The notes below the pieces were generated by a model, which searched no databases, had not been told where the DNA came from, and was given only the letters and a program-made list of their open reading frames with translations. Positions 1,477 to 58,608 of a stretch of 64,000 bases of DNA are shown one piece after another. Source of the DNA: Confluentibacter flavum. Its GTDB lineage: Bacteria; Bacteroidota; Bacteroidia; Flavobacteriales; Flavobacteriaceae. Both the position numbers and the translations under genes were made by a program. The stretch spans positions 1 to 64,000 of the forward strand of contig NZ_PJEO01000056.1 of assembly GCF_002843175.1 (NCBI RefSeq), read 5' to 3'. How positions within the stretch are numbered: position 1 is the first letter of the stretch; every line of letters starts with the position of its first letter.

Positions 1477-4105
1477 AATCAGAAATATTATTAAGTGTTT
1501 TTTCTTTGAAGGTAATCGTGAATTTCGTGCCTTTATTAACTTCACTTTCAACTGAAATTTTACCACCGAGCAATTCAACCTGGGTTTTTACCAGGAACAA
1601 CCCCATCCCTTTGCCTTCAATATGATGATGAAATCTTTTATAAAGACCAAAAACCTGTTCCTCTTTTTTAATCAAATCAATTCCCAGACCGTTATCTTCA
1701 AAAGTGATAATTACGGTTCCTTCTTTAATTTCAGATCTTATCTCTATTCTTGGAGGAACTCCCTGCCTGCGGTACTTTATACTGTTTGTTATGAGATTGT
1801 AAAATATACTGTGAAGGTAGCTTTGAACTGTATCTATAGCCGGAATATCAAAATGTGTTGTGACATGTACTTTTTCTTTGTCAATTAAGTTTTGAATACT
1901 AGATTTAATAGTGTCTACCAGATGCTCCAGTACCACCGTTTCTTTCTTAGCATCCATCTCCACTTTTACCTGTAAAATCGCATTTAAATCAGAAATGACG
2001 GTATCCAGACGTTTTACATTATCAAAAAGTGCCTTCAGAAAGCTGTTTTTCTCTTCTTCCTGATAATCTTTGTCACCAATCAGTTCTACAAGCCCAAGAA
2101 TGTTGGCCACTGGGGATCTCAGGTTATGTGACACTATAAATGAAAACTGCTCCAATCCTTTATTTGCCTCCACAAGCTCTTCAGTATGTGCCTTCAGGTT
2201 TTTATTGAGGCCAATGATTTGTAGGTCTGATTGTTTTCTCTCGGTTACATCTTTAAAATAAACGGAAAGTCCGTTTTTGGAGGGATACGCTGTAACCTCA
2301 AACCATTTATCAGCTCTTTCAAAATATTCTACAAAATCTTCTATCGATCGCTCCCTTACAGCTTTTTGATATGAGGTATAGAATTTCGTGCCAATAGCAT
2401 CAGGATAAACATCCCAAAGATTCTTGCCTAATATTTCCTCTTTTGTGCATTCCAACAATTTTTCTGAATGTCGATTCCAGTAGGTCACTTTCCAATCAGT
2501 ATCAACCATAAAAAAGGCATCTCCTATACTTTCAAGAATAATCTCTTTTTCTTCAGAAGCCTTTAAAGCCTCAAGTTCCGAATTTTTAATTTTGGTAATG
2601 TCCTGAAAACTCCCATTAATTTGCACACATTTGCCATCTACAAAAGTTGGCCGGCCTATTTTTCTCACCCAGTGTACGTTTCCTTTGGCGGTTACTACCT
2701 GCAATTCAAGATCGTATGGAAGGTTTTCTGTAAGTGCTTTTGAATATGCATTGGACATAGCGTCCCTGCTTTTTCCTTCTTTATAGAAAAGAATTCCTTC
2801 TTCCAGAGTAGGATTGTAATCCATATCTACTTCATGGATTTCCTTAGTAACAGGGGACCAATACAAACTGTTTTTTTCACAAACAATTTCAAAACTTCCT
2901 ATACGCGCAAATCTGTATGTCTCATCTAATAGCTCTTCCAGTTTCTCTTTTTCTGAAACATCCTGGATTGCGCCAACCATACGCAATGCCTTGCCATTTT
3001 CGTCTCGAAGAATAGTACCTTTTTCTATTACAGAAGCATATTTCCCATCTGCTTTTTTGAGTCGATATTCTGCTATTCTACGGTTTTCCTTCCCTTCAAT
3101 ACCACTATTAAGACTTTTTATTATTTGATTCTTTTCATCAGGATGGATTTTTTCCAGATAGGCCTCTATTGTTGAAGAAAATTCTTCTTGTGAATAACCA
3201 AACATGGAATGAAATGCTTCCCCCCAAACCAAAACGTTTGAAGTGACATCCCATTCATAAATAGCATCTGAGGTCGCTTTGGAGACCAATTCATAACGAA
3301 TATTGCTTTCTTTCAAAGCCTTATCTGCAAGTTTTCGATCTGTCACATCCCTAAAGTCGGCTACGATTCCTTCAATGGCCGAATCTTCTATAAAGCTAGT
3401 TAGGGTCACTTCCAGCCAGCGCCAGCTTCCATTTTTATGCCTTGCCCTCAATGAATAGCCATCAAATGTAGTTTGGGGGTTTGCCACGCATTCTAAAAAT
3501 TTTTCCTGCACACACTCTCGCTGGTTCTCGTGGATAATTTCATATATATTTAATTCGAGAGCCTCCTTTTCAGAATATCCCAAAACTTTTTTCAATGAAG
3601 GGGTAACATAACTGGGCGTGCCATCGGGTGACAAAATTGCCACTGCATCGGCACCATTTTCTATGAGTCTTCTAAATTTGCGTTCATTCTGCTGAAGTTG
3701 AAAGAGGAAACCTTCGCGTTCCTTTTCCAGTTGTTGTGTCTCCAACACATTCTTTATGGCAGAAGGTAACCTCCCCAGCCGGTCTTTTAATACATAATCT
3801 TTGGCACCTCTCTTAATTGCATTTACTGCAAATTCATCAGACATTGTCGCTGTGACAAGGATGACCGGGATCTTATTCTCACGACTCCCCAGCAACTCTA
3901 ATGCCTCAAAAGAGTTGAAAGATGGTAGTGAATGATCGGCCAGGATTAAATCGGGGTCAAAATCATCTAAGGCCTCAAGGAATTTTTCTTTGGAATCCAC
4001 AACCAAACAATCAAACTTAAAACCCACTTGCTTTAGAGCATGTGAAACCAAAAGTGCATCGCTTGGCTCATCTTCCAGATGAAGTATTCTTAAATTATTA
4101 TGCAT
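1448..4105 (-). CDS. Receiver-PAS4-histidine kinase (soluble sensor kinase)
   Basis: 885 residues without membrane segments. Domain order: receiver (about 5-120; acidic EDE near residue 11, phospho-acceptor D57 in LILADHSLP, K107); four PAS/PAC units (about 144-258, 270-388, 395-510 and 520-625, each ending near a DVT/DIT-type motif); HisKA with H660 in FIVSHNLRSP; and an HATPase domain with N box NLITNSIKY, G1 EDNGLGI and G2 GKGMGLFLV. This is a cytoplasmic multi-PAS sensor that is itself controlled by an N-terminal receiver. Its 3' end overlaps the response regulator ending at 1072. The response regulator at 4166-4612 is 60 bp upstream, so 1072-5555 may be one transcription unit acting as a relay. 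The signal sensed is unknown. Confidence 0.9.
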   Translation of the reverse strand: MHNNLRILHLEDEPSDALLVSHALKQVGFKFDCLVVDSKEKFLEALDDFDPDLILADHSLPSFNSFEALELLGSRENKIPVILVTATMSDEFAVNAIKRGAKDYVLKDRLGRLPSAIKNVLETQQLEKEREGFLFQLQQNERKFRRLIENGADAVAILSPDGTPSYVTPSLKKVLGYSEKEALELNIYEIIHENQRECVQEKFLECVANPQTTFDGYSLRARHKNGSWRWLEVTLTSFIEDSAIEGIVADFRDVTDRKLADKALKESNIRYELVSKATSDAIYEWDVTSNVLVWGEAFHSMFGYSQEEFSSTIEAYLEKIHPDEKNQIIKSLNSGIEGKENRRIAEYRLKKADGKYASVIEKGTILRDENGKALRMVGAIQDVSEKEKLEELLDETYRFARIGSFEIVCEKNSLYWSPVTKEIHEVDMDYNPTLEEGILFYKEGKSRDAMSNAYSKALTENLPYDLELQVVTAKGNVHWVRKIGRPTFVDGKCVQINGSFQDITKIKNSELEALKASEEKEIILESIGDAFFMVDTDWKVTYWNRHSEKLLECTKEEILGKNLWDVYPDAIGTKFYTSYQKAVRERSIEDFVEYFERADKWFEVTAYPSKNGLSVYFKDVTERKQSDLQIIGLNKNLKAHTEELVEANKGLEQFSFIVSHNLRSPVANILGLVELIGDKDYQEEEKNSFLKALFDNVKRLDTVISDLNAILQVKVEMDAKKETVVLEHLVDTIKSSIQNLIDKEKVHVTTHFDIPAIDTVQSYLHSIFYNLITNSIKYRRQGVPPRIEIRSEIKEGTVIITFEDNGLGIDLIKKEEQVFGLYKRFHHHIEGKGMGLFLVKTQVELLGGKISVESEVNKGTKFTITFKEKTLNNISDYEKTTLHVG

Positions 4106-50618: not shown

Positions 50619-50635
50619 TACATTTGTATATACAA
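50619..50635 (+). promoter_or_regulatory. marR promoter box overlapping a perfect palindrome
   Basis: TACATTTG (50619-50626) fits TAnnTTTG. It overlaps the perfect 12-bp palindrome TTGTATATACAA (50624-50635), nine bases before the ATG. A MarR dimer bound there would cover the promoter, implying autorepression. Confidence 0.6.
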
Positions 50636-50644
50636 CAGTTGAAG

Positions 50645-51106
50645 ATGAATATTGAATCCATCTTAAAAATAAGTTCAGATTTATCATTATCCAAAAAAGC
50701 CGTAATCAATGTATTGTTTACTTATGGCCTGATAAATAAAACATTAAACGACGTTCTTAAACCTTTTGATATAACCATTCAGCAATTCAATGTGCTTAGA
50801 ATTTTACGTGGTCAGCATGAAAAACCAATTAGTTTAGAAACTATGCAGGATCTCATGATAAATAAAATGAGCAATACCACGAGGCTGATTGATAAGCTTG
50901 TTAAAAAAAATTATGTCAAAAAGAATATTAATAAAACAAATCGCAGAAAAATAGATATTACTATTACCCATGAGGGATTAAAGCTTCTTGATATCATAGA
51001 CGCAATAATTGATATCACAGAAAAAAAAATCATCGGTTCTTTAACAGATGAAGAAACTCAAGAACTGATTCGATTATTAGGCAAGGTAAGATTAATAGCA
51101 AACTAA
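50645..51106 (+). CDS. MarR-family transcriptional regulator
   Basis: 153 residues from ATG 50645; the longer frame from TTG 50624 overlaps the operator palindrome and is rejected. Winged helix: FDITIQQFNVLRILRGQHEKPISLETMQDLMINKMSNTTRLIDKLVKKNYVKKNINKTNRRKIDITITHEGLKLL. Flanking helices form the dimer. The regulator is divergent from thioredoxin-type genes and upstream of the trp operon; autoregulation is likely, and the redox genes are possible targets. Confidence 0.9.
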   Translation: MNIESILKISSDLSLSKKAVINVLFTYGLINKTLNDVLKPFDITIQQFNVLRILRGQHEKPISLETMQDLMINKMSNTTRLIDKLVKKNYVKKNINKTNRRKIDITITHEGLKLLDIIDAIIDITEKKIIGSLTDEETQELIRLLGKVRLIAN

Positions 51107-51137: not shown

Positions 51138-51165
51138 ACTACCATATATCTTATGGTAGTTTTTT
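51138..51165 (+). terminator. Intrinsic terminator of the marR gene
   Basis: ACTACCATA (51138-51146) pairs with TATGGTAGT (51152-51160), loop TATCT, then T5. It insulates marR from the trp promoter 25 bp further on. Confidence 0.88.
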
Positions 51166-51187
51166 GTTTAAAAAAACACGCGAAAGT

Positions 51188-51219
51188 ATTGTGTAATTAT
51201 ATTTTCATTTCTATATTTG
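51188..51219 (+). promoter_or_regulatory. trp operon promoter
   Basis: ATTG (51188-51191), 20-nt spacer, TATATTTG (51212-51219): a good match to the Bacteroidota TTTG-N19/20-TAnnTTTG promoter. Transcription would start near 51226, about 12 nt before the leader ATG. Confidence 0.75.
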
Positions 51220-51237
51220 GCACAGTTAAAACAAAAT

Positions 51238-51300
51238 ATGAATACATTTTTAAATAAAACTTGGTGGTGGAGCTTTAGAAACTTAAATTTCGTGAAGTAA
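51238..51300 (+). CDS. trpL: trp leader peptide
   Basis: A 20-codon ORF, ATG 51238 to TAA 51298-51300, encoding MNTFLNKTWWWSFRNLNFVK. Three consecutive Trp codons TGG TGG TGG lie at 51262-51270, against an expectation of well under one. The ORF starts just after a good promoter and ends 30 nt before a strong terminator ahead of trpE. This is the classic layout for attenuation: scarcity of charged tRNA-Trp stalls the ribosome on the TGG codons and prevents terminator formation. It is too short for routine gene calling. Confidence 0.85.
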   Translation: MNTFLNKTWWWSFRNLNFVK

Positions 51301-51330
51301 AACCTAGTATATTTAAAACTTAAAATATCC

Positions 51331-51363
51331 AAAAGGCTTGTCATTCACGACAGGCCTTTTTTT
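51331..51363 (+). terminator. trp attenuator terminator
   Basis: AAAAGGCTTGTC (51331-51342) pairs over 12 bp, with one G-U pair, with GACAGGCCTTTT (51349-51360); loop ATTCAC; T run continues to 51363. It lies between trpL and trpE. I could not identify the competing antiterminator helix with confidence. Confidence 0.85.
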
Positions 51364-51375
51364 ATGAAACTATTT

Positions 51376-52779
51376 ATGATGACATTTAATTTACATACGC
51401 ACCACAAAAAAATTTTAACGGACACTATTACGCCAGTGACTGTTTACTATAAAATAAGGGACAAATACCCAAACAGCATACTTCTGGAAAGTGGGGATTA
51501 CCATGCAAGCCAAAAAAACTTCTCCTATATATGCTTTAATCCTATAGCATCTATAAAAGTTGAAAACGAGGTAATAACACAAACATTTCCTGACGGAAGT
51601 ACCACTTCAACCAAAATTGATGGGACCATTAATCTGGCTAATGAAATTCATCACTTCACAAAACGTTTTGAGACTGATACAGAAGAGAGCTTTAAATTCA
51701 TAAACAATGGTATTTTTGGTTACACTGCTTATGATGCCGTAAGGTATTTTGAGGATGTTGCTATCAGCAAAAAAGAGAATTCCATTAACATTCCAGATGT
51801 GTATTACGCTGTTTATCAGAATATTATTGCCATCAATCATTTTAAAAACGAAGCGTATATTTTTGCGCATTGTTTTAATGGAGAAAACAATATTCATGAA
51901 ATAGATGAATTGATTAATATCCAAAATTTTCCTTCTTATAAGTTTTCGCCATCAGGCGATATCACCTCAAATCTAACCGATGATGAGTATAAAACCCATG
52001 TAGAGCTTGCTAAAAAGCATTGTGCTAGAGGCGACGTGTTTCAATTGGTATTATCAAAAAGCTTCACTCAAGAATTTAAAGGCGACGAGTTTAATGTTTA
52101 TAGAGCTTTGAGGAGCATTAATCCGTCACCCTATCTATTTTATTTTGATTACGGTAATTTCAAAATCTTTGGAAGTTCCCCTGAAGCCCAACTGATTGTA
52201 AGTGATGGTAAAGCTGAAATACATCCCATTGCAGGCACTTTTAAACGTACAGGTGATGATGTAAAAGATGCCGAATTGGCCGAAGCCTTGAAAAAGGACA
52301 GTAAAGAAAATGCTGAGCATGTGATGTTGGTAGATTTGGCTAGAAACGATTTAAGTCGCCATGGTAGCAACGTTACCGTAGACACCTATCGCGAAGTTCA
52401 GTTTTTTTCACATGTCATTCATTTGGTGAGTAAAGTCACTGGACAAAAACATACCGAAACGCCCACCATGCAAGTAGTTGCCGATACGTTTCCTGCAGGC
52501 ACGTTAAGTGGTGCGCCCAAGCACAGAGCCATGCAACTTATTGAACAATACGAAAAAACAAGTCGAGGGTTTTATGGCGGTGCTATTGGCTTTATGGATT
52601 TTAACGGCAATTTTAATCATGCCATTATGATTAGGACTTTTTTAAGTAAAGACCATAAATTACATTGGCGAGCAGGTGCCGGATTGGTTTCAAAATCAAA
52701 CCCAGAAGATGAATTGCAAGAAGTTTATAATAAATTAGGTGCATTAACAAAAGCCATTAAATTAGCTGAAGACATATAA
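51376..52779 (+). CDS. trpE: Anthranilate synthase component I
   Basis: About 467 residues. The frame is open from ATG 51364, but that codon touches the attenuator T run; MMTFNLHTHHK from 51376 matches the usual flavobacterial TrpE N-terminus (M-x-T-F-x-L-x-T) and is preferred. Chorismate-binding signatures: LESGDYHASQ near the start (feedback-site region), RGDVFQLVLSKSF, SPYLFYFDYG, HPIAGTFKRTGDD, EHVMLVDLARNDLSRHGS, AGTLSGAPKHRAMQLI and YGGAIGFMDFNG. With TrpG it makes anthranilate from chorismate and glutamine. trpG starts one base after its stop. Confidence 0.96.
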   Translation: MMTFNLHTHHKKILTDTITPVTVYYKIRDKYPNSILLESGDYHASQKNFSYICFNPIASIKVENEVITQTFPDGSTTSTKIDGTINLANEIHHFTKRFETDTEESFKFINNGIFGYTAYDAVRYFEDVAISKKENSINIPDVYYAVYQNIIAINHFKNEAYIFAHCFNGENNIHEIDELINIQNFPSYKFSPSGDITSNLTDDEYKTHVELAKKHCARGDVFQLVLSKSFTQEFKGDEFNVYRALRSINPSPYLFYFDYGNFKIFGSSPEAQLIVSDGKAEIHPIAGTFKRTGDDVKDAELAEALKKDSKENAEHVMLVDLARNDLSRHGSNVTVDTYREVQFFSHVIHLVSKVTGQKHTETPTMQVVADTFPAGTLSGAPKHRAMQLIEQYEKTSRGFYGGAIGFMDFNGNFNHAIMIRTFLSKDHKLHWRAGAGLVSKSNPEDELQEVYNKLGALTKAIKLAEDI

Positions 52780-52780
52780 A

Positions 52781-53344
52781 ATGAAGATACTAGTTATAGA
52801 TAATTACGACAGTTTCACTTACAATTTGGTTCATTATTTAGAAGATCTAAACTGTGATGTTACTGTATTGAGAAACGATAAATTGACTTTAGAAGATGTG
52901 GAACCGTTTGATAAAATCGTTTTATCACCAGGTCCTGGTATTCCAGATGAAGCGGGTTTATTAAAGACCATCATAAAAAAATATGCGCCAACAAAAAGCA
53001 TTTTGGGTGTTTGCTTAGGGCAACAAGCCATTGGGGAGGTTTTTGGTGGTTCTCTAATTAATTTAGACGAGGTGTATCATGGTGTTGCAACTAAGGTCAC
53101 CATTACCGTAGATGACGAATCACTATTTAACGGACTTGAAAAAGAAATTGAAGTAGGACGATACCATTCTTGGGTGGTAGATGCAAATTTACCGGACAGT
53201 TTAGAAGCTACTTCTTTTGATTCCAACGGACAAGTCATGTCCTTGCGCCACAAGGTATATGACGTTAAAGGTGTGCAATACCATCCAGAATCGGTCTTAA
53301 CGCCTTTTGGAAAACAGATATTGAAGAATTGGATTGATAGTTAG
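52781..53344 (+). CDS. trpG: Anthranilate synthase component II (glutamine amidotransferase)
   Basis: 187 residues, a class I glutamine amidotransferase: DNYDSFTYNLVHYLE at the start, catalytic Cys in GVCLGQQAIGE, and the His-Glu pair in VQYHPESVLTPFG. It supplies ammonia to TrpE and may also serve PabB. It is one base from trpE, so it is translationally coupled. The C-terminus IDS runs directly into repeat-like sequence before the inserted four-helix-bundle gene. Confidence 0.96.
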   Translation: MKILVIDNYDSFTYNLVHYLEDLNCDVTVLRNDKLTLEDVEPFDKIVLSPGPGIPDEAGLLKTIIKKYAPTKSILGVCLGQQAIGEVFGGSLINLDEVYHGVATKVTITVDDESLFNGLEKEIEVGRYHSWVVDANLPDSLEATSFDSNGQVMSLRHKVYDVKGVQYHPESVLTPFGKQILKNWIDS

Positions 53345-53346
53345 AC

Positions 53347-53374
53347 GATAGATTTTAGACTTAAGACAATAGAT
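53347..53374. repeat. Left arm of inverted repeat flanking the four-helix-bundle gene
   Basis: 28-bp arm containing TAGACTTAAGA (53356-53366), complementary at 21 of 28 positions, including an exact 11-bp core, to the right arm at 53733-53760. Confidence 0.65.
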
Positions 53375-53381
53375 ACAAGAT

Positions 53382-53738
53382 ATGAATAACTATAAGGATT
53401 TGAAGGTTTGGCAAAAATCAATGGACTTGGCTGAAAAAGTTTATATGTTAACATCTACTTATCCAAAAGAAGAAAAATATGGGTTGATTAGCCAAATTCA
53501 AAGAAGTGTTATTTCCATACCTTCAAACATTGCAGAAGGTGCCGGAAGGAATTCAAATAAAGAATTCAGAAACTTTCTAGGAATAGCTAATGGCTCCATT
53601 AATGAATTAGCAACACAATTAACACTTTCAATTAGAATTGGTTATGTAAAAGAAAACGAACTAGAGGATATTTTTAACCTGATCACTGAAATCCAAAAGA
53701 TGAATTTCACCTTAATTAAAAAATTTTCTAATATCTAA
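53382..53738 (+). CDS. Four-helix-bundle protein (S23/23S rRNA intervening-sequence family)
   Basis: 118 residues with the family signature: YKDLKVWQKSMDLAEKVYMLTSTYPKEEKYGLISQIQRSVISIPSNIAEGAGRNSNKEF, then helices to the end. Proteins of this family were first met within intervening sequences of 23S rRNA genes; their function is not established and they scatter through genomes. Here the gene sits inside the trp operon between trpG and trpD, bounded by 28-bp inverted repeats. The right arm contains both its stop codon and the trpD start codon. It has no role in tryptophan synthesis that I know of, so it is likely an insertion tolerated in the operon. Confidence 0.9.
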   Translation: MNNYKDLKVWQKSMDLAEKVYMLTSTYPKEEKYGLISQIQRSVISIPSNIAEGAGRNSNKEFRNFLGIANGSINELATQLTLSIRIGYVKENELEDIFNLITEIQKMNFTLIKKFSNI

Positions 53739-53760
53739 CATCTTAAGTCTATAGTCTATG
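53733..53760. repeat. Right arm of inverted repeat flanking the four-helix-bundle gene
   Basis: Contains TCTTAAGTCTA (53741-53751), exact complement of the left core. It overlaps the stop codon of the small gene and the ATG of trpD. Confidence 0.65.
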
Positions 53761-54750
53761 AAAAACATATTAAACGGACTCATTAACCACGAAACCTTAG
53801 AAAGCGAAGAGGCTAAACAGATTTTGGTAAACATTTCCAACCAAATGTACAACCAAAGTCAAATTGCTTCCTTTCTTACGGTTTTTATGATACGCAGCAT
53901 CACACTTGAAGAACTCAAAGGGTTTAGAAATGCCCTTTTAGAGCTATGTGTTCCCATCAATTTAAACGATTTTAATGCCATTGACTTATGTGGCACCGGT
54001 GGTGATGGCAAAAACACGTTTAATATTTCAACATTAGCATCATTTGTCACTGCTGGTGCAGGCGTACATGTGGCTAAACACGGTAATTATGGCGTGTCTT
54101 CCTCTTGTGGTTCATCAAACGTTATGGAGTTTTTGGGCATTAAATTTTCAAGTGATGAGGACTTTTTAAAACGCGCAATGGATAAAGCAGGCATTTGCAT
54201 ATTGCACGCGCCTTTGTTTCATCCAGCTATGAAACATGTAGCACCTATTCGTCGTGAATTGGGCGTAAAAACGTTTTTCAACATATTGGGTCCCATGGTA
54301 AACCCATCATTCCCAAAAAATCAAATGGTGGGGGTTTTTAATTTAGAATTGCTAAGGCTCTACGGCTACTTATATCAGAATACAGATAAAAATTATAGTA
54401 TTGTGCATGCCTTAGATGGTTATGATGAAATATCTTTGACAGGAAAAACAAAAGTGATTTCCAACGAGAGTGAACTATTATTTTCACCCGAAGATTTAGG
54501 ACTTTCACAAATAAAACAAGACGCTATATATGGTGGCAACACTGTTGAAGAAGCCGCTAAAATATTTATGGATGTCATTCACGGAAAAGGTACTGAAGCA
54601 CAAAACAATGTGGTTTGTGCCAATGCCGGGTTAGCGATTGCGACAGTGAAACAAATCAGTCACAAACAAGGTTTTGAACTCGCCAAAGAGTCCTTACTTT
54701 CTGGAAAAGCAAAACAAAGTTTAGAGATATTAATAGAATTGAGTAGATAA
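53758..54750 (+). CDS. trpD: Anthranilate phosphoribosyltransferase
   Basis: 330 residues. Conserved segments: DLCGTGGDGKNTFNISTLASFVTAGAGVHVAKHGNYGVSSSCGSSNVMEFLG for phosphoribosyl pyrophosphate and anthranilate, LHAPLFHPAMKHVAPIRRELGVKTFFNILGPMVNP, and DEISLTG. It joins anthranilate and PRPP to give phosphoribosylanthranilate. Its start codon lies in the right inverted-repeat arm of the preceding inserted gene. Confidence 0.96.
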   Translation: MKNILNGLINHETLESEEAKQILVNISNQMYNQSQIASFLTVFMIRSITLEELKGFRNALLELCVPINLNDFNAIDLCGTGGDGKNTFNISTLASFVTAGAGVHVAKHGNYGVSSSCGSSNVMEFLGIKFSSDEDFLKRAMDKAGICILHAPLFHPAMKHVAPIRRELGVKTFFNILGPMVNPSFPKNQMVGVFNLELLRLYGYLYQNTDKNYSIVHALDGYDEISLTGKTKVISNESELLFSPEDLGLSQIKQDAIYGGNTVEEAAKIFMDVIHGKGTEAQNNVVCANAGLAIATVKQISHKQGFELAKESLLSGKAKQSLEILIELSR

Positions 54751-54842
54751 ATCCCATCCTAAATCCTTCCCCAAGGGAAGGACTTAAAAAAGATGGAGCA
54801 TAACAAAATAGTTCCCTTTCCTTTGGAAAGGGTTAGGGATAG
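54751..54842. repeat. Double-hairpin palindromic repeat, trpD-trpC junction
   Basis: Two 8-bp GC-rich stems: TCCTTCCC-CAA-GGGAAGGA (54764-54782) and CCCTTTCC-TTT-GGAAAGGG (54814-54832), enclosed by ATCCC...GGGAT. The layout resembles dispersed intergenic repeats of flavobacterial genomes. It fills the 97-bp gap. Confidence 0.7.
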
Positions 54843-54847
54843 AAAAA

Positions 54848-55633
54848 ATGAATATATTAGATAAGATAGTAGCCGATAAACGTCAAGAAGTCGATTTAAA
54901 AAAATCGTTGGTTCCTGTATCTCAATTAGAACGATCCGTTTTATTTGAAAGGAAAACGACTTCTTTAGCCCATAAATTAAGAAACAGTTCCTCAGGTATT
55001 ATTGCCGAACATAAAAGACGATCTCCTTCAAAATCAACTATCAATCAGAATTTAAACGTACAGGATGTAGCCAAAGGTTACGAACATGCAGGAGTATGTG
55101 GTATGTCTGTTTTAACCGATTTAAAATATTTTGGTGGTGCTTTAGACGATTTAATATTAGCAAGAGCGAGTTGTAACCTACCTTTGTTACGAAAAGAGTT
55201 TATCATTGACGAATACCAAATATTGGAAGCCAAAGCGTCTGGCGCCGATGTTATTTTGCTTATTGCAGCGATTTTAACGAGAGAGGAAATCAAACAATAT
55301 TCAGAATTTGCCAAGAGCTTACAATTGGATGTATTATTGGAAGTTCATAACGAAGAAGAATTAGACAAATCCATCATGCCAAGTTTGGATATGTTGGGTG
55401 TAAACAATAGAAACTTAAAAACCTTTGAAGTCAGCCTAGACATAAGTAAAAAACTAAGTGAGATGATTCCAAATGAGTTTGTTAAAGTATCTGAAAGTGG
55501 TATCAGCAATATTAAAGCCATTAAAGAATTACGGCCTTTTGGTTTCCAAGGCTTTTTAATTGGAGAAAACTTTATGAAAACGGATAATCCGGGCAAAAGT
55601 GCTATGGAGTTTATAAATCAATTAAACAAGTGA
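54848..55633 (+). CDS. trpC: Indole-3-glycerol phosphate synthase
   Basis: 261 residues, (beta/alpha)8 barrel. Signatures: IIAEHKRRSPSKSTIN with catalytic Lys, MSVLTDLKYFGGALDDL, LLRKEFIIDEYQILEAKASGADVILLIAAIL, LLEVHNEEELDKS, GVNNRNLKTFEVSLD and VSESGISN. It cyclises and decarboxylates the TrpF product. It is a separate gene from trpF here, 84 bp upstream of it, with a palindromic repeat in the gap. Confidence 0.96.
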   Translation: MNILDKIVADKRQEVDLKKSLVPVSQLERSVLFERKTTSLAHKLRNSSSGIIAEHKRRSPSKSTINQNLNVQDVAKGYEHAGVCGMSVLTDLKYFGGALDDLILARASCNLPLLRKEFIIDEYQILEAKASGADVILLIAAILTREEIKQYSEFAKSLQLDVLLEVHNEEELDKSIMPSLDMLGVNNRNLKTFEVSLDISKKLSEMIPNEFVKVSESGISNIKAIKELRPFGFQGFLIGENFMKTDNPGKSAMEFINQLNK

Positions 55634-55636
55634 TTT

Positions 55637-55712
55637 GTCATTCCGCAATTGATGCGGAATCCATTATAAATTGAACTAAAAACAAAAAGATTCCCACTTT
55701 CGTGGGAATAAG
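55637..55712. repeat. Palindromic repeat copy 1, trpC-trpF junction
   Basis: ATTCCGCA-ATTGA-TGCGGAAT (55640-55660) and ATTCCCAC-TTTC-GTGGGAAT (55690-55709), about 30 bp apart. A second copy of this element with the same two-hairpin layout lies at 56499-56573. Confidence 0.8.
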
Positions 55713-55717
55713 AAAAT

Positions 55718-56347
55718 ATGAGGCTTAAAGTTTGCGGTATGAAATACCAAGATAATATCGAACAAGTTGCAGCATTGCAACCAGACTATCTTGGCTTTAT
55801 TTTTCACGAAAAATCCAAAAGACATTTCGGTGAAAACGACATGCCCCAAATACCTCATTCCATAAAAAAAACAGGGGTTTTTGTGGATACTGAACTTCAT
55901 GAAGTCATTGAGAAAATAAACTTTTATCATTTACACGCTGCTCAATTACATGGACATGAATCACCTGAATATTGTGAAAAATTAAAAGCATATAATATTG
56001 AAATCATCAAAGCATTTTCAGTCGATGACAGTTTCAATTTTGATGATTTAAAACCTTACGAACCTGTTTGTGATTACTTTTTATTCGATACCAAAGGCAA
56101 ATTGCCCGGGGGCAACGGTTACACTTTTGACTGGACTATTTTAAATAAATATCCTTCAACAAAACCGTTCTTTTTAAGTGGTGGTATTGGTTTGAAAGAG
56201 GTTGATAGTATTTTGTTATTCCTAGAAAAGCCAGAATCCAAATATTGTTATGCCATCGATGTAAATAGTAAATTTGAAATAGAAGCAGGATTAAAAGATA
56301 TTGAAATATTAAAAGAGTTTAAAAACAAATTATGTCACTTCGAGTAA
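55718..56347 (+). CDS. trpF: Phosphoribosylanthranilate isomerase
   Basis: 209 residues: KVCGMKYQDNIEQVAALQPDYLGFIFHEKSKR at the N-terminus, GVFVDTELHEV, HLHAAQLHGHESPEYC, YFLFDTKGKLPGGNGYTFDW and FFLSGGIGLKEV. The final residues CHFE and the stop codon are encoded by the start of a palindromic intergenic repeat (GTCACTTCGAGTAA), not by ordinary trpF sequence. An almost exact 35-bp copy of the preceding 3' coding sequence reappears at 56457-56491, in frame with a different tail. The active-site parts are complete, so function should be intact. Confidence 0.95.
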   Translation: MRLKVCGMKYQDNIEQVAALQPDYLGFIFHEKSKRHFGENDMPQIPHSIKKTGVFVDTELHEVIEKINFYHLHAAQLHGHESPEYCEKLKAYNIEIIKAFSVDDSFNFDDLKPYEPVCDYFLFDTKGKLPGGNGYTFDWTILNKYPSTKPFFLSGGIGLKEVDSILLFLEKPESKYCYAIDVNSKFEIEAGLKDIEILKEFKNKLCHFE

Positions 56348-56400
56348 TTTTTGAGGCACGAAAAAATTGTATCGAGAAGTCAAAAGTTCTCGATACAAAA
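56333..56400. repeat. Palindromic repeat fused to the trpF 3' end
   Basis: Begins GTCACTTCGAG within the trpF end and contains the perfect hairpin GTATCGAGAA (56369-56378) / TTCTCGATAC (56387-56396). It is probably another dispersed repeat type. Confidence 0.65.
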
Positions 56401-56456
56401 TTCTAAAAAAAAGAATTTCACTCTAACTGACAAAAAAAATAACAGGAATTGTTAGA

Positions 56457-56491
56457 ATTAAAAGATATTGAAACATTAAAAGAGTTTAAAA
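56457..56491 (+). repeat. Duplicated fragment of the trpF 3' end
   Basis: 35 bp matching 56290-56324 of trpF at 34 of 35 positions (LKDIEILKEFK becomes LKDIETLKEFK). It flanks the inserted repeat at 56333-56400 on its far side. It runs in frame into MSLSFRT and a stop. Confidence 0.85.
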
Positions 56492-56498
56492 TGAGCTT

Positions 56499-56573
56499 GT
56501 CATTCCGCACTTGATGCGGAATCCATTATAAATTAAATATAAATTAAATAGATTCCTGCCTTCGCAGGAATAG
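56499..56573. repeat. Palindromic repeat copy 2, trpF-trpB junction
   Basis: ATTCCGCA-CTTGA-TGCGGAAT (56502-56522) and ATTCCTGC-CTTC-GCAGGAAT (56552-56571). Same layout and flanks as the copy at 55637-55712, ending 8 bp before the trpB start. Confidence 0.8.
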
Positions 56574-56580
56574 AAATAAC

Positions 56581-57762
56581 ATGAATTACAACGTAAACGA
56601 AAAAGGCTATTATGGAGAATTTGGAGGCGCATTCATACCAGAAATGCTCTATCCAAATGTAGAAGAATTACGCCAAAAATACTTGAGCGTTATGGCTGAA
56701 CCTGACTTTATAAAAGAGTTCAATCAATTGCTTAAAGATTATGTGGGCCGCCCTTCTCCACTCTATTATGCCAAGCGACTTTCAAAAAAATACAATACTA
56801 AAATCTACTTAAAACGTGAGGATTTAAATCATACTGGTGCACATAAAATTAATAATACCATTGGTCAGATTCTCATGGCTAAACGCCTAGGAAAAACCAG
56901 AATTATTGCCGAAACGGGTGCTGGTCAACATGGTGTTGCCACAGCTACGGTTTGTGCTTTAATGGGATTGGAATGTATTGTTTATATGGGTGAAATTGAT
57001 ATTGCTCGTCAAGCTCCCAATGTGGCCCGCATGAAAATGTTAGGTGCTAAAGTGGTTCCTGCCTTATCGGGTAGTAGAACACTTAAAGATGCAACCAACG
57101 AGGCCATTCGCGATTGGATCAACAACCCCGTAAACACGCATTATATCATTGGATCTGCTATTGGCCCACATCCGTATCCAGATATGGTCACACGGTTTCA
57201 ATCGGTTATTTCCGAAGAAATTAAATGGCAATTAAAAGAACAAGAAGGCACGGAAAACCCAGATTATGTGGTGGCCTGTATTGGCGGTGGCAGTAATGCT
57301 GCGGGTACTTATTACCATTTTTTACACGAACAAGACGTGAAGATTATCGCTGTTGAAGCTGCTGGATTGGGAGTTGATTCTGGTGAAAGTGCTGCAACTT
57401 CTGTTTTAGGAAAAGAAGGCATTATTCATGGCTGTAAAACGCTATTGATGCAAACTAAAGACGGACAGATTACTGAGCCTTATTCTATTTCTGCAGGATT
57501 GGATTACCCTGGTGTTGGTCCCATGCATGCCCATTTAGCAAAAACGGGACGTGCCGAATTTATGGCGATAACAGACGATGAAGCGATGACCGCTGGTTTA
57601 GAGCTGTGCCAATTAGAAGGTATTATTCCAGCGATAGAAACTTCTCATGCGCTTGCCATTTTTGAGCAAAGAACCTTTAAACCAGATGATGTTATTGTGG
57701 TGAGTTTATCTGGGCGAGGGGATAAGGATTTGGATACTTATATTAAATATTTTAAACTGTAA
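56581..57762 (+). CDS. trpB: Tryptophan synthase beta chain
   Basis: 393 residues. [21 protein letters not shown] at the start, PLP lysine in [42 protein letters not shown], the phosphate-binding [10 protein letters not shown], and [16 protein letters not shown]. It condenses indole with serine, in complex with TrpA. Full length. The gap to trpA (84 bp) contains a further palindromic repeat. Confidence 0.97.
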
Positions 57763-57833
57763 GGTCGTACTGAACTTGTTTCAGCATCACATTAAAAAAA
57801 ATTGGTGAGAACCTGAAACAAGTCAGGTTGACA
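57763..57833. repeat. Palindromic repeat, trpB-trpA junction
   Basis: CTGAA-CTTGT-TTCAG (57770-57784) and AACCTGA-AACAAG-TCAGGTT (57810-57829), bounded by GTCGT and TTGAC. A decayed relative is seen at 47710-47745. Confidence 0.7.
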
Positions 57834-57846
57834 AAAACAATACATT

Positions 57847-58608
57847 ATGAATCGAATTCAAAATAAATTACAAGAAGACAAAAAACTTCTATCCATATAT
57901 TTTACAGCTGGGTATCCCAATTTGGATGATACCATAAACATCATTCAAGAGTTAGAAAAAAATGGGGTTGATATGATTGAAATCGGCTTGCCTTTTAGTG
58001 ATCCATTGGCCGATGGCCCAACCATTCAAGCGAGTTCAACCAAAGCTTTAAAAAATGGCATGACTTCGGAAGTGCTTTTCAATCAACTTAAAGACATTCG
58101 AAAAACGGTGAACATTCCGTTAATCATCATGGGCTATTTTAATCCCATACTTCAATACGGTGTGGAAGCATTTTGCAAAAAATGTCAAGAAGTTGGTATT
58201 GATGGGTTGATTATTCCCGATTTACCTGTAGATGTATATCACGATGATTATAAATCCACGTTTGAAACATACGGATTAATAAATGTGTTCTTAATCACGC
58301 CACAAACTTCCGATGAGCGCATTCAGTTTATAGATTCTGTCTCCAACGGATTTATCTATATGGTAAGTAGTGCCAGTGTTACGGGAAGTCAGTCCGGTTT
58401 TGGTGACGAAAATACTAGGTATTTTAAACGTATTGCTAACATGAATCTTCAAAATCCTCAGATTATTGGATTTGGTATTTCTGATAGTAAAACATTTACA
58501 CAAGCCACCGAATATGCGCAAGGTGCCATTATAGGTAGTGCTTTTATAAAATTCCTTAGTGATCATCCTATTGATAAAATCAGTAAATTCGTTACATCCA
58601 TCAGATAA
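57847..58608 (+). CDS. trpA: Tryptophan synthase alpha chain
   Basis: 253 residues. Catalytic Glu in DMIEIGLPFSDPLADGPTIQASS and Asp further on in DGLIIPDLPVDVY; phosphate loop VSSASVTGSQSGFG and GFGISDSKTF. It cleaves indole-3-glycerol phosphate to indole for TrpB. It is the last gene of the operon. No convincing terminator follows; the SIMPL-domain gene starts 31 bp later and may be read through. Confidence 0.96.
   Translation: MNRIQNKLQEDKKLLSIYFTAGYPNLDDTINIIQELEKNGVDMIEIGLPFSDPLADGPTIQASSTKALKNGMTSEVLFNQLKDIRKTVNIPLIIMGYFNPILQYGVEAFCKKCQEVGIDGLIIPDLPVDVYHDDYKSTFETYGLINVFLITPQTSDERIQFIDSVSNGFIYMVSSASVTGSQSGFGDENTRYFKRIANMNLQNPQIIGFGISDSKTFTQATEYAQGAIIGSAFIKFLSDHPIDKISKFVTSIR

Follow-up and report, generated by a model that had tools for sequence, protein, structure and literature searches.

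The leader of the Escherichia coli trp operon combines tandem Trp codons in a short open reading frame (ORF) with alternative protector, antiterminator and terminator hairpins, with trpE lying downstream, and its antiterminator takes the 5' arm of the terminator. For Bacteroidota, the Bacteroid-trp RNA family (Rfam RF01692) was published by Weinberg et al. 2010 (PMC2864571), in a main text where 'leader peptide', 'antiterminator' and 'tryptophan' have zero occurrences. In Flavobacterium psychrophilum, Bacteroid-Trp has been named before trp and likened to the E. coli attenuator (PMC6414381), and the transcriptome of this species gave clues for leader-peptide attenuation upstream of amino-acid operons (PMC9723704); supplements apart, these two reports propose such attenuation and describe no antiterminator. 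A literature search that included PMC4833913 (supplements apart) likewise found no description of an antiterminator for the Bacteroid-trp family.

Here we describe the leader of a trp operon in the window, by which we mean the whole 64,000-nucleotide stretch of DNA that was analysed. Judged from its sequence and from comparison with relatives, the leader is very probably a ribosome-mediated transcription attenuator of the trp operon that senses the supply of charged tRNA-Trp, a member of RF01692 for which we propose a three-state switch. The features of the locus are as follows.

51212-51219, + strand: -7 box TATATTTG, an exact TAnnTTTG of the Bacteroidota sigma-A type (sequence and relatives)
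51238-51300, + strand: leader ORF MNTFLNKTWWWSFRNLNFVK, 20 codons, ATG at 51238 and TAA at 51298-51300 (sequence; equivalent ORFs in relatives)
51262-51270, + strand: tandem Trp codons (TGG)3, TGGTGGTGG, proposed ribosome stall site (sequence; conserved in TrpE-anchored loci)
51248-51318, + strand: predicted protector hairpin, 1:2 type (MFE fold, RF01692 alignment)
51290-51296, + strand: UCGUGAA, proposed to form the 5' strand of the antiterminator, sharing bases with the final codons of the leader (relatives, fold)
51303-51305, + strand: CCU, 5' side of the predicted inner helix of the antiterminator, which pairs with AGG at 51334-51336 in the terminator 5' arm (fold)
51331-51342 and 51349-51360, + strand: arms of the predicted intrinsic terminator, loop 51343-51348, T run to 51363 (sequence, fold, relatives)
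51344-51350, + strand: UUCACGA, 3' strand of the proposed antiterminator, comprising terminator loop and first two bases of the 3' arm
51376-52779, + strand: trpE, for anthranilate synthase component I; the reading frame is open from 51364, with 51376 or 51379 as the more probable start
52781-58608, + strand: rest of the trp operon

The initial annotation had listed a promoter, a 20-codon ORF with three TGG codons, a 12-pair hairpin with a T run, and trpE, and the sequence bears out every part, its order and its coordinates. The window shares with the E. coli leader the tandem Trp codons, the predicted alternative hairpins and the downstream trpE, and differs from it in having a promoter of the Bacteroidota type. 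Of 73 loci, 71 have a TAnnTTTG box no more than 110 nt 5' of the Trp codons (two of the 75 loci compared had too short an upstream sequence and were left out), with 0.086 expected by chance per locus. This motif has been described as the -7 box of Bacteroidota, at positions -12 to -5 (PMC9723704), and its conservation suggests that transcription starts near 51224, 5' of the leader ORF, and not downstream of 51300, a placement that the initial annotation had named as speaking against its reading. A generic promoter and terminator scan listed no sigma-70-type promoter on the + strand, and the leader terminator was likewise absent from its list. These misses are not counted as evidence against the attenuator, because the promoter is of the Bacteroidota rather than the sigma-70 type and because, by our own explanation, the outer A:U pairs of the terminator stem consume most of the T run.

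The window attenuator is a member of the catalogued family RF01692 and no new kind of element. Using cmscan, positions 51218-51342 matched the full model (1-131) with 52.2 bits, above the gathering score of 49, at a site upstream of trp genes in Bacteroidota, and all five genomes of the genus, its own included, have matches above the gathering score (5/5 also at E<=0.001). When 4227 Rfam families were compared with 51150-51420, the matches at E<=1 were to RF01692, RF02503 and RF01859 only, so no other trp-leader family fits; those to RF02503 and RF01859 were below the gathering score and were taken as chance. The RF01692 model ends inside the 5' arm of the terminator (position 131, GGCUUGUC) and pairs the protector hairpin alone, holding neither the 3' arm of the terminator nor an antiterminator. 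The initial annotation's reading of the locus as leader-peptide attenuation in Bacteroidota is supported; its claim to novelty has to be lowered, because RF01692 was already catalogued and flavobacterial attenuation had already been proposed (PMC6414381, PMC9723704).

The RNA spanning 51200-51381 is more stable than shuffled versions of itself (z -3.06, with two of 200 shuffles equally good). Its protector hairpin, which corresponds approximately to the structured part of RF01692, is predicted to pair the leader ORF, including the Trp codons, with the stretch 3' of the stop codon, and in ribosome-free RNA this is predicted to hide most of 51290-51296.

For comparison, we assembled a TrpE-anchored set, independent of RNA models, from the 80 closest TrpE relatives (69-84% identity) and the window, the nearest named relatives being Flavobacteriaceae such as Flavivirga and Algibacter. 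L014 and L069 end at a contig edge, which leaves 79 testable loci. The leader is present in all 79, with WWW in 78 and WWC in one (L028), giving the short ORF with tandem end-product codons that characterises E. coli-type attenuation; the parts and their order are shown by comparison. Conservation of the consecutive Trp codons was the check that the initial annotation had proposed, and, together with the -7 box 5' of the ORF, it makes leader-peptide attenuation of trp the best-supported reading of this sequence. The leader, with TGGTGGTG, stands no more than 320 nt before the TrpE match in 75/79 loci; in L045, L046, L072 and L073, Trp codons of the same leader kind are found 470-542 nt upstream of the match. 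These four loci contain a small GIY-YIG domain gene (PF01541, above cut-off in 4/4) between attenuator and trpE (L045 1236-1451; L046 1176-1460; L072 1139-1435; L073 1140-1436), and the attenuator would therefore control that gene together with trp.

The E. coli type of attenuation also has an intrinsic terminator between the leader ORF and the first structural gene, and one is present here. Its stem comprises 12 pairs, one of them G-U, closed by the loop ATTCAC, with a predicted energy of about -16.6 kcal/mol. As to covariation of this hairpin, likewise proposed earlier as a check, both sides have changed among relatives at three of ten consensus pairs (alignment A1), and the terminator was the sole structure returned by RNAalifold for the whole alignment. 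The ORF that follows is TrpE-like, its best NCBIfam model being trpE_most (421 bits, E 6e-126; the model cut-off of 517.7 is not reached). Translation of trpE probably does not begin at the ATG immediately after the T run (51364): two of the four other genomes of the genus have this ATG out of the trpE frame, whereas all four keep the frame at the ATGATG of 51376-51381.

The initial annotation saw no obvious antiterminator partner, and this part of its account can now be replaced by a proposal. Alignment from the Trp codons brought out another conserved word, UCGUGA, where the leader ORF ends; it is complementary to UCACGA. In the window, 51290-51296 would pair with 51344-51350, and 51303-51305 with 51334-51336, giving an antiterminator with a predicted energy of -11.5 kcal/mol. 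Bases 51334-51336 and 51349-51350 are common to antiterminator and terminator, and the two structures would be mutually exclusive. We conclude from the sequences that UCGUGAA:UUCACGA, together with a short inner helix that involves the 5' arm of the terminator, is likely the antiterminator. The suspicion that the switching geometry may differ from that of E. coli holds for this proposal, because the antiterminator would occupy the loop of the terminator and the beginning of its 3' arm in addition to part of the 5' arm, whereas that of E. coli takes the 5' arm. Such a geometry is absent from the Rfam model, and the literature search (supplements apart) found no description of it.

The position of the word relative to the Trp codons is close to constant. 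The last Trp codon and CGUGA are 19 nt apart in 54 of the 75 TrpE-anchored loci and 20 nt apart in the other 21, and the distance from the word to the terminator is 29-45 nt among these 75 by the script's measure. Among 60 more loci, retrieved with the RNA model and partly from the same genomes, CGUGA lies at 19 or 20 nt in 54 and at 18 nt in L108; it is missing in five (L120, L137, L139, L140 and L141), and alignment A1 is displaced by one base where it places the antiterminator word of L141. The spacing is therefore near-fixed, not absolute. The stop codon, too, has characteristic placements on comparison, starting at +2 (46 loci), +7 (20), -7 (6), -4 (2) or -8 (1) relative to CGUGA. Where the spacing is 20 nt, the word is read in another frame and the stop lies at +7 instead of +2; in other loci the stop comes just before the word. 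With the spacing near-fixed and the stop position variable, it is the RNA word, its distance to the stall codons and a nearby stop that are kept, and not the peptide or the frame.

The element was found in 135 loci (not in L014, L045, L046, L069, L072 and L073; L001, the window itself, was left out), and four of these (L120, L128, L130 and L139), missed by the fixed terminator pattern, were dropped to give a set of 131, from which a 90% redundancy filter kept 86. Folding of the antiterminator segment gave an outer helix of at least four pairs in 129/131 loci and an inner helix of at least two pairs on the terminator 5' arm in 129/131, usually around an AU-rich apical hairpin. Changes in the length of the terminator loop fall 5' of UCAC, which leaves UCAC contiguous with the GA that belongs to the 3' arm.

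In the switch that we propose, transcription would begin near 51224 and the leader ORF would be translated. At low Trp-tRNA, the ribosome would stall on WWW, open the protector hairpin and free UCGUGAA, which could then capture UUCACGA while the 3' arm of the terminator is still incomplete, with the inner helix forming on the 5' arm as well, and so let transcription proceed into trpE. With enough Trp-tRNA, the ribosome would reach the stop codon on or beside UCGUGAA and cover that word, and the terminator would form. If the leader is not translated, the protector hairpin would hide UCGUGAA, again allowing the terminator to form. The transcription start, the ribosome stall, termination, and the success of the weaker antiterminator through forming first are steps that we infer.

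We modelled these states in 128/131 Flavobacteriaceae-type loci, a sample that favours canonical loci because CGUGA and a UCACG-like partner were required. With a ribosome on the Trp codons and the RNA extending to the end of UCACGA, the predicted antiterminator probability exceeds 0.9 in 118/128 loci (0.998 in the window) and is 0.9 or less in ten, the lowest value being 0.09. Without a ribosome, it is below 0.5 in 113/128 loci and 0.5 or more in 15; in the window it is 0.27, the protector hairpin being favoured there. Under an assumed footprint, a ribosome that has reached the stop codon would mask all of CGUGA in 126/128 loci and not fully in two. The terminator is predicted to be more stable than the antiterminator in 126/128 loci (-16.5 vs -11.5 kcal/mol in the window), and at equilibrium the antiterminator is negligible, with a median probability of 0.0001. 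Readthrough would thus need kinetic control, because the terminator is the more stable structure and wins at equilibrium; presumably the antiterminator forms first and lasts while the polymerase passes the U tract.

Inside Flavobacteriaceae, each of the six core antiterminator pairs is standard in 83 to 86 of the 86 nonredundant sequences. No antiterminator covariation was found within this family (score 0.021 vs 0.026 for shuffles), and swapping terminators between its loci made no difference (p 0.54; 24 nonredundant of 131 loci). Covariation is uninformative there because the helix is nearly invariant, and loci of a second and a third family were therefore fetched; the weight of the argument rests on these distant loci. 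The second family, of the same order, gave some match in 38/40 genomes and 26 strong TrpE loci, with TGGTGG upstream of trpE in 24/26 and WCW, by eye, in L165. The third, more distant family has RF01692 matches in 19/61 genomes. The family labels given by the tool, f2 and f11, may correspond to Weeksellaceae-like and Bacteroidales-like bacteria. One second-family locus, L155, has trpE directly after the end of a trpB-like gene, by eye without a leader of its own.

For the second family, the partner of the leader segment is in most loci the 5' arm of the terminator; by eye, examples are AAAGUCUU:AAGACUUU and GAUUUAUCG of L165 with its own 5' arm. In L144 and L148 the pairing is with the loop and 3' arm, in different letters. 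Some loci of the third family, such as L186, have by eye GUCGUAAG:CUUACGAC, and in L120, given under that family, the leader by eye precedes a trpB-like gene. Own partners outperformed swapped ones in the second family (-12.2 vs -9.8 kcal/mol; 18 nonredundant of 23 loci; 0/5,000 permutations) and in the third (-17.5 vs -16.1 kcal/mol; 13 nonredundant of 19; p 0.028). For the noncanonical loci, mostly from the two other families (41 nonredundant of 51), own pairs averaged -13.94 and swapped pairs -10.38 kcal/mol, and none of 10,000 within-group permutations reached the own-partner value. Measured by the longest helix the result is weaker, at 7.29 for own and 6.32 for swapped pairs (11/10,000 within groups), since 7 bp are reached by 28/41 own pairs but also by 40% of swapped ones. 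All these loci are related by descent, so that the permutation counts are not true probabilities and are softer than they look. Element extraction missed 12 loci (L013, L014, L027, L045, L046, L069, L072, L073, L144, L155, L165 and L167); L165 could be added back for the 51-locus swap, for which L198, L199 and L201 were fetched in addition; L144 and L167 stayed out, as the hairpin finder did not recognise them there either. Where its letters differ, the antiterminator helix thus appears to change in step with its own terminator, and pairing with the own partner in other families is a result of the comparison.

The same leader-peptide attenuation might use another antiterminator pairing, for example the inner helix on the 5' arm alone, with CGUGA:UCACG kept as a pause or protein site. 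The near-invariance of the helix in Flavobacteriaceae, which deprives covariation of its force there, would suit that explanation, as would the mainly 5'-arm partner of the second family. We nevertheless consider it unlikely, given a word that follows the Trp codons at 19-20 nt in each TrpE-anchored locus where it was measured, a loop whose length changes lie 5' of UCAC and so leave UCAC joined to GA, and loop-side partners that change with the leader segment in L144, L148, L186, L199 and L201 (by eye). On balance, we lean slightly towards a scheme in which a trp attenuator of Bacteroidota rests its antiterminator chiefly on the loop of the terminator and the initial bases of its 3' arm, takes the decision in the last few nucleotides before the U tract and holds the word 19-20 nt from the Trp codons regardless of frame, a sister family having mostly switched to the 5' arm.

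Three other explanations fare worse. In the window, 12 nt separate the end of the T run from the probable trpE start, as would suit a hairpin that hides this start and acts on translation without ending transcription; such control is nevertheless improbable, as relatives keep the T run, their hairpins stand anywhere from about 0 to 143 nt before the start of the TrpE match where a fixed, short distance would be expected, and a whole gene separates hairpin and trpE in four loci. Arrest by the nascent peptide, which would sense free tryptophan in the manner of TnaC with no codon stalling on uncharged tRNA, could account for a short conserved stretch before WWW, often N-T. The residues after WWW, the peptide length and the stop-codon position vary, also in frame, and tandem Trp codons fit codon stalling, all of which makes peptide arrest very improbable. 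An ordinary terminator of the upstream gene next to a chance ORF would have the AT-rich setting in its favour and nothing else; it is refuted by the comparison with relatives, with the leader in every testable locus, an Rfam match and a -7 box between the two hairpins, of which the one at 51138-51160 belongs to the upstream MarR-type gene.

From leader-peptide attenuation with the loop-side antiterminator, an RNA family that Rfam models with neither an antiterminator nor a full terminator would gain a testable mechanism of three states. To what was known, this analysis adds the proposed antiterminator, its near-fixed spacing from the Trp codons and, in other families, altered pairing partners, and it offers a natural comparison between loop-plus-3'-arm and 5'-arm solutions at the same leader position in related families. 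These bacteria have been described as lacking Shine-Dalgarno sequences (PMC9723704); if the mechanism is true, transcription and translation would be coupled in them closely enough for attenuation. For the source genome, it means ordinary regulation of tryptophan synthesis.

At E<=0.001, RF01692 matched 208/299 genomes of the family and 30/296 genomes sampled over the phylum, 28 of the 30 being in the window's family. Loci fetched with RF01692 are biased towards that model, while the 80-locus set and the second-family loci were fetched by TrpE protein, and some genomes are common to the TrpE-fetched and RNA-model-fetched sets. We built our own model, with the terminator included, from the 86 nonredundant sequences. 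It found one strong copy in the source genome (121 bits; next match 36 bits). There were 19 other matches at E<=10 (best E 1.4e-4), and the six inspected (L191-L194, L196 and L197, on other contigs) resemble ordinary terminators or coding sequence.

In the family, our model matched 143/149 genomes at E<=0.001, 136 of them at 1e-8 or better. Four of the six unmatched genomes lack a convincing TrpE (best 162 bits or less), and the other two, G039 and G131, have a divergent one. In G131 (L201) the leader is divergent, with a segment ACCGGAU that by eye pairs with AUCCGGU of its own terminator, and no leader was found within 700 nt of the divergent TrpE of G039 (L200). Not every match near the threshold is a leader, as shown by G027, which matched weakly (E 8e-4) and lacks a convincing TrpE. 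RF01692 missed at least eight genomes (G008, G016, G024, G029, G051, G054, G056 and G058) that the terminator-containing model matched at 1e-8 or better. RF01692 could be extended by the 3' half of the terminator.

Upstream of the leader, a MarR-type gene occupies 50624-51106, and a terminator-like hairpin (51138-51160, both strands) lies between it and the trp promoter. Downstream of trpE, the operon is made up as follows.

52781-53344, + strand: trpG-like
53382-53738, + strand: 23S rRNA IVP-type gene, between trpG and trpD (PF05635, TIGR02436)
53758-54750, + strand: trpD-like
54848-55633, + strand: trpC-like
55718-56347, + strand: trpF-like
56581-57762, + strand: trpB-like
57847-58608, + strand: trpA-like

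The 23S rRNA intervening-sequence-type gene inside the operon encodes a four-helix protein. A tblastn search with it over 85 related loci gave one notable match, in L067 (about 3504-3542), where 13 residues of the start of the gene are left just before trpD and are followed by a stop; this is the remnant of a lost copy of the gene.
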